Source: Deltaproteobacteria bacterium (GTDB taxonomy: Bacteria; Desulfobacterota; Dissulfuribacteria; Dissulfuribacterales; UBA3076). From it: a DNA stretch of 41,443 bases. The DNA lies in NCBI GenBank assembly GCA_003194485.1, contig PQXD01000001.1:53780-95222 (forward strand). The letters are read 5' to 3'. The stretch's first letter is position 1. The number at the start of each line of letters is the position of its first letter. The translations under genes and the position numbers were made by a program. The notes beneath the pieces were generated by a model, which worked only from the letters and a program-made list of their open reading frames with translations, did not search any database and was not told the origin of the DNA. This document shows positions 9,202 to 39,109 of the stretch, in pieces.

Positions 9202-9684
9202 ATGGTTTCCATAGAAGACTTGAGAAGGGTCGTATTGTTTGGAGGTCTGACGGACCAGATGCTTGAGGAATTGGCTCCGATGGTTCAAACGGAGTCTATC
9301 GGGGAACGACAGGTCATTTACGAACCAGGCAGCAAGGCGGACCATTTTTACTCACTCAAACGCGGCAAGGTGTTGCTCGAGGCAGAGCTTGCCCCGACCC
9401 TTATTATCTCTCTCAGTGCCATAAAGCCGGGGTATTCTTTTGGCTGGTCCGCCCTTCTTCCATCGGCGACTCACACATCTTATGCCGCGTCTGTCGAGCC
9501 CTCTGAAATATTGGTTATCCCCGGGGCCGGTTTTCTGGCCGTCCTCGATAAGGACCAGGCTATGGGATATGCTGTTATGCAGAAAATAGTACAAATACTG
9601 GAAAACCGCCTGGAACATCGCACCGCCCAGTTCCTGAGGGTCATAAGCAAGCATCCTGAGATAGGAGCACTTTTGGGCATGTAG
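9202..9684 (+). CDS. Cyclic-nucleotide-binding-domain protein (Crp-like sensor without DNA-binding domain)
   Basis: A 160-residue soluble protein consisting of one cNMP-binding beta-barrel: FGGLTDQMLEELAPMVQTES, RQVIYEPGSKADHFYSLKRG, then the cassette-like GYSFGWSALLPSATHTSYAA (about residues 73-92) and the C-helix. No winged-helix DNA-binding part follows, so it is probably a sensor or partner protein and not a transcription factor. The canonical GE...R phosphate-binding pair is not intact, so ligand identity is open. It starts 23 bases after the last antiporter subunit with GGGAG upstream, so it is probably the last gene of the Mrp operon. Confidence 0.85.
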   Translation: MVSIEDLRRVVLFGGLTDQMLEELAPMVQTESIGERQVIYEPGSKADHFYSLKRGKVLLEAELAPTLIISLSAIKPGYSFGWSALLPSATHTSYAASVEPSEILVIPGAGFLAVLDKDQAMGYAVMQKIVQILENRLEHRTAQFLRVISKHPEIGALLGM

Positions 9685-9762: not shown

Positions 9763-9798
9763 ACTTCTCAATAAGTCAGGGTTTATATGTATTTGCTG

Positions 9799-9992
9799 GT
9801 GAATATTCGGTGAACCCGTGGTCCACTTGGAAATTGACATCCGTGCCCTGCCGCAGGAGCGGTTTGCCTTTTGCAGGGTTTCAACCGCGGGCCGGATTGC
9901 ATTGCCTCTCCGGTCTGCGATGAGTGAGCTTTGAAACCCGGAAAAAGGTAACCGCTCCAAGGCAGGATATAACGGGTTCACCGGATATTTAC
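9799..9992 (-). mobile_element. MITE-like element, arm type A, copy 1, with perfect 8-bp target duplication
   Basis: A 194-bp non-coding element with terminal inverted repeats of 21 bp: left GTGAATATTCGGTGAACCCG+T, right the complement of GTAAATATCCGGTGAACCCG+T. The two differ at two positions. It is flanked on both sides by ATTTGCTG (9791-9798 and 9993-10000), a perfect 8-bp direct repeat. Internal arms (GCGGTTTGCC.../...GGTAACCGCT) add further pairing, so a transcript would fold into one long hairpin. Its interior is a close match to the copies at 15100 and 33276, in opposite orientation. It lies in the 5' region of the receiver gene. Confidence 0.88.
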
Positions 9993-10064
9993 ATTTGCTG
10001 GACCATGGTTCGATGAACAGTCTGTGTGTGTCGGTTATCATCGAAGGAAGATAAGGAGGGGAAA

Positions 10065-10496
10065 ATGTCCAAGAAGATCTTAATCGTCGATGATGAGCCT
10101 GACATTATTACGTTTGTTGGTGCGGTTCTTGAGGAGAACGGCTACACAAGTATCAGTGCAAAGAACGGGGTTGAGGGCCTGGAGTTACTGCGAACGGAAA
10201 AACCGGATCTGGTACTCCTCGATTTGATGATGCCGAAGAAAAGCGGCATCACCATGTTCCAGGAATTGAGAAGTGATCCGGACATGAGCCATACTCCCGT
10301 AGTGGTGGTAACAGGTGTCTCTGAAGTAACAGGTGTTGATTTCAGAGATTTCATGTACAAGAAGCCGATGGCCGATGAGGAAAAGTTTGTGGAGACCACT
10401 GGGTTAACAAAGTATACTGTACCTGATGGTTATATTGAAAAACCGATTGACCCGGATGAGTTAATTAAGGCCATTAAGAATGCCTTAAAAGAATAA
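10065..10496 (+). CDS. Stand-alone response-regulator receiver protein
   Basis: A 143-residue single receiver domain. Acidic pocket D9-D10, phospho-acceptor D53 in LVLLDLMMP, Thr in VVVVTGVS and Lys in GYIEKPIDPDEL are all present. Between beta-4 and the final Lys there is an insertion of about 35 residues (DFRDFMYKKPMADEEKFVET...), so the protein is longer than the usual 120. There is no output domain, so it probably acts through protein-protein contact or phosphotransfer. ATG 10065 has GGAGGGG directly upstream; an in-frame ATG 13 codons earlier has no such site and falls outside the domain. No histidine kinase is encoded nearby. Confidence 0.9.
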   Translation: MSKKILIVDDEPDIITFVGAVLEENGYTSISAKNGVEGLELLRTEKPDLVLLDLMMPKKSGITMFQELRSDPDMSHTPVVVVTGVSEVTGVDFRDFMYKKPMADEEKFVETTGLTKYTVPDGYIEKPIDPDELIKAIKNALKE

Positions 10497-15099: not shown

Positions 15100-15295
15100 G
15101 TAAATATCCGGTGAACCCGTTATATCCTGCCTTGAAGCGGTTACCTTTTTCCGGGTTTCAAAGCTCACTCATCGCAGACCGGAGAGGCAGTGCAATCCGG
15201 CCCGCGGTTGAAACCCTGCAAAAGGCAAACCGCTCCTGCGGCAGGGCACGGACGGCAACCTTCCGCAGTGGACCACGGGTTCACCGGATATTTAC
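15100..15295 (+). mobile_element. MITE-like element, arm type A, copy 2, forming the end of ispG
   Basis: A 196-bp non-coding element with perfect 21-bp terminal inverted repeats, GTAAATATCCGGTGAACCCG+T (15100-15120) and its complement (15275-15295). Flanks are TAATTTTC (15092-15099) and TGATTTTC (15296-15303), an 8-bp duplication with one mismatch. Interior sequence such as TTTCAAAGCTCACTCATCGC and GGAGAGGCAGTGCAAT is shared almost unchanged with copies 1, 3 and 4. The ispG stop codon (15294-15292) lies inside the terminal repeat. It is the reference copy for the family here. Confidence 0.92.
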
Positions 15296-17858: not shown

Positions 17859-17935
<77 letters not shown>

Positions 17936-18422: not shown

Positions 18423-19081
18423 GTAAATATTCTTATGAACCCGTTATATCCTGCCTTGGAGCGGTTACCTTTTTCCGGGTTTCAAAGCTCACTCATCGCA
18501 GACCGGAGAGGCAGTGCAATCCGGCCCGCGATCGAAACCCTGCAAAAGGCAAACCGCTCCAAGGCAGGGCGCGGACGGCAACCGTTCACGGGAGGGGGGA
18601 TATTTCTTTGAACAGTTTAACCCGAATTATGCAGCAGCCAAGTTTGCCAAAGATGCGAGGCGGAAGGCACGCAGACGTACTTTTGTACTTCAAGTGCCTG
18701 ACAACAAAGCAGATTTGGTAAAATTGGCTGCCCCTTGTGGCTTCAAATACCGAACAATTTTTAACTCCGGTGGAATGCACCTTTTGGGTGAACATTCCAA
18801 ACTGGACAATACACCATAACTTACTGATTTTTCTATTTGTTCCTTATTGTTCGGTGTTTGAAGTGCATAATTTGGGTTTAACGGAAGCCCCCGTAGTTTT
18901 CTCGGCTTTTGCTGTGGGGGAAACTGCATCGCCTTAAGCGCAGCGTAAGGCGAATGCAGAGGGGGCAGGACATCCCCCATGTCAAAAGCCTTAAGAAAAC
19001 AAGGGGCTGAAGTGTGAAGTGAAAAGAAATATCCCCTTCCAGTGAACGGTTGCTGGGACCACGGGTTCACCGGATATTTAC
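18423..19081 (+). mobile_element. Composite MITE-like element, arm type A, copy 3 with nested inserts
   Basis: A 659-bp element whose outer ends are type A: left GTAAATATTCTTATGAACCC+GT (variant), right the canonical end. The first 170 bases match the simple copies. An inner arm pair follows (GGCAACCGTTCACGGG...GATATTTCTTT against AAAGAAATATCCCC...GTGAACGGTTGC). Inside this is another inverted segment: AACCCGAATTATGCA (18619) with TGCATAATTTGGGTT (18864), 14/15 matches, and CTTCAAATACCGAACAAT (18741) with ATTGTTCGGTGTTTGAAG (18846), 17/18. The GCCTTAAGAAAACAAGGGGC core lies near 18988. The flanks ATAATTTT and AAAATTGT match at 6 of 8 positions, so a duplication is only suggestive. Confidence 0.75.
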
Positions 19082-33275: not shown

Positions 33276-33470
33276 GTAAATATTTGGTGAACCCGTTATA
33301 TCCTGCCTTAAAGCGGTTACCTTTTTCCGGGTTTCAAAGCTCACTCATCGCAGACCGGAGAGGCAGTGCAACCCGGCCCGCGTTCGAAACCCTGCAAAAG
33401 GCAAGCCGCTCCTGCGGCAGGGCACGGATGGCAACTTCCACAGCGGACCACGGGTTCACCGAATACTTAC
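33276..33470 (+). mobile_element. MITE-like element, arm type A, copy 4, upstream of rpoD
   Basis: A 195-bp non-coding element. Left end GTAAATATTTGGTGAACCCG+T and right end the complement of GTAAGTATTCGGTGAACCCG+T have two mismatches. The flanks ATTATATT (33268-33275) and ATTATATG (33471-33478) match at 7 of 8 positions, an 8-bp target duplication. The interior matches copies 1 and 2 closely. Read toward rpoD, the duplicated flank creates TATAAT at 33273-33268, next to the element end. Confidence 0.9.
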
Positions 33471-35005: not shown

Positions 35006-35356
35006 TCTGTACATAACCTCCAAATTTTCATTTACATTACAAGAAAAAACAACAAATAAGAAGACCCGCTTGTAAATATTCTTATGAACCCGTCCGTGGT
35101 CCACTGGCAACCGGTCACACAGGGTGCTCCTTCTTCCAACATGCTCTCGCCCCTTGTTTTCTTTAAGGCTTTTGACATGGTGGATGTCCTGCACCCTCTG
35201 CATTCGCCTGCGCTGCGCTCCGGAGCCGGGGGAGGGTCTCCCTCCCATGCTTACGAAGGCCTTAAGAAAATAAGGGGCTGAAGTGTGAAGTGAAAAGAAA
35301 TATCCCCTGCCAGTGAACGGTTACGTGGGACCACGGGTTCATAAGAAATTTACGAC
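35006..35356. other. Gene-free gap filled by a repeat element
   Basis: Between the universal stress protein start and the peptidase stop there is only an AT-rich leader and the composite element at 35072-35353. No gene is supported here. Confidence 0.75.
35072..35353 (+). mobile_element. Composite MITE-like element, arm type A ends with a type B core
   Basis: A 282-bp element with variant type A ends: left GTAAATATTCTTATGAACCC+GT, right the complement of GTAAATTTCTTATGAACCCG+T (one-base length difference). Inside, the left arm is type B (AACCGGTCACACAGGGTGCT, CCAACATGCTCTCGCCCCTT) but the right arm is the one used by the composite at 18423 (GGGGCTGAAGTGTGAAGTGA, AAGAAATATCCCC). The core is GGAGCCGGGGGAGGGTCTCC. 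No convincing 8-bp duplication flanks it. It ends three bases before the peptidase stop codon. Confidence 0.75.
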
Positions 35357-39034: not shown

Positions 39035-39109
39035 TGGCTGGGGTGGGAGGATTCGAACCTCCGAATGCGGGCTCCAAAAACCCGTGTCTTACCGCTTGAC
39101 GACACCCCA
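39035..39109 (-). tRNA. tRNA-Gln (anticodon TTG)
   Basis: On the minus strand the cloverleaf is complete: acceptor TGGGGTG/CACCCCA, D arm around GTCAAGCGGTAAGAC, anticodon stem CGGGT/GCCCG with loop TTTTGGA (anticodon TTG), and T arm GGAGG-TTCGAAT-CCTCC. The discriminator is G and CCA is encoded. The gene lies between ispE and prs, a known location for tRNA-Gln in this gene group. Confidence 0.96.

Follow-up and report, generated by a model that had tools for sequence, protein, structure and literature searches.

The 194-bp element at positions 9799-9992 of the window, the 41,443-nucleotide stretch of DNA that was analysed, is very probably (at close to nine chances in ten, judging from sequence comparison) one copy of a high-copy family of IS66-derived MITEs (miniature inverted-repeat transposable elements) that would be moved in trans by an IS66 transposase. 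The MITE family is new, whereas the kind of mobile DNA that it represents is known; what the family has in common with the IS is confined to its ends. The window is part of contig C1 of a draft genome of 2.55 Mb (87 contigs, 97.4% complete), and copies of the family were studied through genome searches, a contiguous 390-kb sample, and selected loci.

The element of the window, copy 1, lies on the plus strand between a left terminal inverted repeat (TIR), GTGAATATTCGGTGAACCCGT, at 9799-9819 and a right TIR at 9972-9992 that is given as ACGGGTTCACCGGATATTTAC and corresponds to GTAAATATCCGGTGAACCCGT on the minus strand. The two ends are complementary at 19/21 positions, exactly at the coordinates and with the match reported in the preliminary description, which had also noted an exact 8-bp duplication at both borders; we find it as ATTTGCTG, without strand, at 9791-9798 and again at 9993-10000. 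The left end starts with GTGA, and the right end starts with GTAA, as does the family consensus, to which copy 1 is ~96% identical. Within the element, an imperfect inner hairpin of ~138 bp common to the family (module M1; 9834-9970, plus strand) takes up most of the length. No plausible gene was found inside copy 1, and the ORFs running across 9799-9992, 60-99 aa in length, are mechanical, in line with the earlier claim that the element has no coding frame of its own. Copy 1 therefore has the build of a MITE, being short, bounded by terminal inverted repeats, and devoid of a transposase gene.

Copy 1 is one of five family elements in the window, where the end motif has 7 matches compared with 0 in 100 shuffles. 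The four further elements, like the long hairpin interior, had gone unremarked in the preliminary description. All four lie on the minus strand: copy 2 (196 bp, 15100-15295; flanks TAATTTTC / TGATTTTC), the composite copy 3 (659 bp, 18423-19081; flanks ATAATTTT / AAAATTGT, with 2 mismatches), copy 4 (195 bp, 33276-33470; flanks ATTATATT / ATTATATG), and the degenerate copy 5 (282 bp, 35072-35353, i.e., contig C1 88851-89132), in which type-2 ends surround remnants of a second hairpin module, M2. The layout of copy 3 is a type 2 TIR, M1, an interrupted M2, and a type 1 TIR. At least two elements are broken up by what looks like a third, nested repeat, a stretch containing GACAACAAAGCAGATT... 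(G000 C1:72400-72654, window 18621-18875, and L087 8107-8561; G000 is the window genome).

Genome-wide, the search with the ends that the preliminary description had proposed reveals a high-copy family. The 18-bp type-1 end has 252 matches at ≤2 mismatches, against 0 for the reversed control, and the other end subtype, GTAAATATTCTTATGAACC, is matched 73 times, in the window genome alone of the eight genomes of the genus; the resulting total of 325 end matches corresponds to roughly 160 elements. A DNA search returned at least 41 near-full or partial copies, with 40 of 228 candidates scored. The terminal sequence of the copies is GTAAATATYCGGTGAACCCG or a variant thereof. Across 40 aligned copies the mean column identity is 92%, and since a typical copy is ~92-99% identical to the family consensus, the expansion appears to be fairly recent. 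The paired copies sampled are mostly 194-198 bp long and contain M1, within a full range of 178-659 bp, so that the family consists of dispersed multiple copies of similar length, as is characteristic of MITEs. In the sister genomes the only full MITE copy lies on G002:C196 (L074), and it was dropped as evidence of cross-species spread, because this contig matches the window species at 99.9% identity along 1.7 kb, right flank included, and is probably mis-binned or conspecific.

Some size variants carry M2, a 208-bp hairpin (ACCGTTCAC...GTGAACGGT) that adjoins M1 in the 395-402-bp copies examined. The window genome contains at least 40 copies of M2 (e.g., G000:C8:29566-29773, L133:1501-1707, and L131:1501-1704), and outside it we observe 2 copies in G003 and 12 matches, mostly partial, in G007. 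Because the M2 copies examined in G003 and G007 occur without IS66-type ends, the simplest reading of M2 is that of an independent repeat captured by the MITE family. Several composite copies are flanked by perfect or near-perfect 8-bp duplications and have therefore moved as units, and 6/53 sampled copies carry one end of each subtype. A more elaborate picture, to be taken as tentative and on balance doubtful, is that of a rapidly expanded IS66-type MITE family in which the captured M2 moved as part of a composite and each of the two end subtypes (CGGTGA and CTTATGA) may track a transposase of its own.

Among 53 paired copies, at loci partly picked by likeness to the window copy so that the proportions describe this sample rather than all copies of the genome, 27 are flanked by identical 8-mers and 12 more by 8-mers with one mismatch (39/53 together), compared with a mean of 0.8 and a maximum of 5 at ≤1 mismatch when the flanks were re-paired at random in 200 trials. 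The duplicated 8-mers vary between sites and have no consensus; each site thus bears its own duplication, which marks the copies as products of separate transposition events, each with an 8-bp stagger, and the constant-length target duplication at independent sites is again a property of MITEs. The preliminary description had held that copies lacking 8-bp direct repeats would speak against its reading, and the repeats are present in the proportions just given. Its proposal of cut-and-paste movement in trans is likewise supported, as far as sequence can tell, by numerous copies that share their ends and lie at different sites, each of which has a distinct 8-bp duplication. A joined-flank search of seven sister genomes yielded no true empty-site homologue of the window copy, because intergenic DNA is not conserved among them; it returned little beyond the neighbouring response-regulator gene at ~76% identity.

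The link to IS66 comes from a sister genome. In a search of 60 related genomes, a small number of genus members carried the end motif, and in Deltaproteobacteria bacterium UBA3076 (G003) two such ends lie 2,736 bp apart (G003:C194:1887-4622). The element between them encodes an IS66 DDE transposase (PF03050, E 2.6e-58) as well as a DruA-domain protein (PF14236, E 3.2e-46). It is a full-length IS with the same ends and a transposase, of the kind that the preliminary description had suggested looking for, and it narrows the earlier list of families giving ~8-bp duplications (ISL3, IS66, ISAs1, and IS1595) by pointing to IS66. A second IS copy in G003 is about 94-95% identical to the first. AATTATTT flanks the tnpC side of the second copy and the druA side of the first, on two contigs, which would amount to an 8-bp duplication around the G003 IS if a single insertion had been divided between the two contigs or if exchange had occurred between the copies. 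No intact autonomous copy was seen among the two, since the transposase of the first is divided between two reading frames and a run of N breaks that of the second. The ends common to the MITE and the G003 IS66 element, which belong to the same genus, extend over 18-21 bp and are almost exact. Only these ~21-bp ends align, and the interior shares nothing; an origin of the MITE by internal deletion of the UBA3076 IS was rejected, as the two have no subterminal sequence in common.

Published IS66 elements agree with this assignment. ISPsko1 (IS66) has the ends GTAAGCGTCCGGCGAACTC... (PMC12888890), to which the family consensus end GTAAATATCCGGTGAACCC is identical at 14/19 positions, and two IS66 elements of Paracoccus, ISPpa5a and ISPpa7, have lengths of 2.7-2.8 kb and 8-bp duplications (PMC3281130). 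The family combines GTAA-starting ends, an 8-bp duplication, and a full-size relative with an IS66 transposase and the same ends, the features by which IS66 elements would be recognized, and its ends (GTAAATATYCGGTGAACC) are by their sequence IS66-type. As a plausible mechanism, an IS66 DDE transposase (TnpC), whose role as partner we infer only from the shared ends, would bind the MITE ends in trans, excise or copy the 195-bp element, and insert it at staggered cuts that host repair would turn into the 8-bp repeats, while the interior, made up of hairpin M1 and in some copies also of M2, would travel as passive cargo.

In the window genome itself, no intact IS66 transposase with the family ends was found, only two IS66 fragments (C34 and C59). 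The C34 fragment adjoins an intact DruA-domain gene, and the C59 fragment lies near a contig end without a matching TIR nearby. An IS66-like end beside the C34 DruA gene, with 4 mismatches, was not counted, being no better than chance matches of that quality. Draft assemblies lose multi-copy IS elements, and a MITE can outlive its partner. The partner IS66 may thus be unassembled, given that an 87-contig draft can lose repeats, or may have been lost after the expansion; since a MITE can persist without it, an intact partner in the same genome is not defining for an IS66 family. This missing partner, together with an interior that shares nothing with the IS66 element, would also suit a MITE of another 8-bp-duplicating DDE family (ISL3, ISAs1, or IS1595), the likeness to the sister IS66 ends then being convergent. 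We regard such an origin as improbable, because convergence would have to account both for an 18-21-bp end nearly identical to that of an IS66 element of the same genus and for a 5'-GTAA and CCGG.GAAC core that match a published IS66 end.

The IS66-derived reading also has to be weighed against one in which the hairpin interior, kept by selection as an RNA or a REP/BIME-like regulatory element, is the functional unit and mobility comes second. The interior of copy 1 is a long imperfect hairpin with a very stable predicted fold (-56.6 kcal/mol as DNA, z = -8.6; -105.4 kcal/mol as RNA, z = -9.7), the repeats are numerous and intergenic, and M2 is likewise a hairpin repeat found without IS66 ends in sister genomes. 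However, the element has no match to an Rfam family, and covariation over 40 copies contributes only -1.44 of -90 kcal/mol, with two-sided changes in 6/72 pairs, three of the six in the transposon ends. A structured RNA was rejected for the lack of an Rfam match and the weak covariation, and because the covariation is small and half of the two-sided changes (3/6) fall in the transposon ends, the hairpin is adequately explained as an inherited palindrome. The flanking 8-bp duplications, moreover, mark the whole TIR-to-TIR unit as the mover, which leaves a selected hairpin as primary unit with a very low probability, below that of another DDE family. A chance arrangement of the inverted ends and the ATTTGCTG repeat, for which we found nothing in favour, is excluded by the absence of end matches in the shuffled and reversed controls and by duplications in 39/53 pairs against 0.8.

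The insertions of the MITE family are biased towards intergenic DNA. In the 390-kb contiguous sample, where ORFs were called by a simple longest-first rule, 13/17 paired insertions are intergenic, though ORFs cover 88% of the sequence; three of the remaining four lie ≤20 bp from an ORF end, and one lies in a 108-aa, possibly spurious ORF. Purifying selection against copies that land in genes is the best explanation of this bias. Copy 1 itself lies between a cyclic-nucleotide-binding-like gene (9202-9684) and, downstream, a response-regulator-like gene (10065-10496, plus strand), whose ATG at 10065 is 72 bp past the element; both gene names come from reading of the sequence. Lying in the upstream region of the response-regulator-like gene, copy 1 might alter its expression. 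A paralogue of this gene at G000:C8:68281-68813 (L004, L126), 78% identical in DNA, also has a MITE ~100 bp upstream. That MITE has a different perfect 8-bp duplication and is for this reason apparently an independent insertion.

Compared with known systems, the family resembles IS66 elements (ISPsko1, ISPpa5a, and ISPpa7) in its 5'-GTAA ends with the CCGG.GAAC core and in its 8-bp duplication, and its full-size G003 relative likewise has a PF03050 transposase and a passenger gene. The window element differs from them in its length of 194 bp and in having no gene, and the G003 relative differs in leaving no room for separate tnpA/tnpB and in carrying a DruA-domain gene. Passenger-carrying IS66 elements are known as tIS66, such as ISPa75. 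MITECca01 of Cardinium, which is IS982-derived and has 169 copies (PMC9769881), is similar in its small size, IS association, inverted repeats, >100 copies, mostly intergenic placement, and restriction to one lineage, whereas the parent of the window family is IS66, its interior is unrelated to the known IS, and it includes composites that carry a second hairpin, as well as two subtypes of end. MITEPsy1 and MITEPsy2 (PMC3189936) are likewise small non-autonomous elements moved in trans, but with different or unknown transposase families and a much lower copy number. The same mode of movement, with different or unknown transposase families, applies to the Tn3-derived TIMEs (PMC4133298). REP, REPIN, and BIME sequences are also palindromic intergenic high-copy repeats, to which the window family adds transposon ends and an 8-bp duplication on whole units.

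A keyword search of the literature found no paper naming an IS66-type MITE, of which the present family would be a clear high-copy case. The family, at ~160 copies in the 2.55-Mb genome, is a prominent repeat there, supplying intergenic hairpins and possible regulatory changes, and it may explain some assembly breaks.

DruA-domain (PF14236, Druantia) genes adjoin IS66 transposases at two loci, L071 (G003:C194) 1966-2838 and L078 (G000:C34) 849-1730. The two proteins are 69% identical and belong to two different elements. A literature search found no papers joining IS66 with DUF4338 or DruA. At these loci the DruA-domain gene seems to be a passenger or accessory of IS66 rather than part of a Druantia defence locus, and its recurrent pairing with an IS66 transposase affects the scoring of such genes as defence genes. 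The window also contains two tRNA genes (Rfam RF00005) on the minus strand, at 17862-17935 and 39038-39109.
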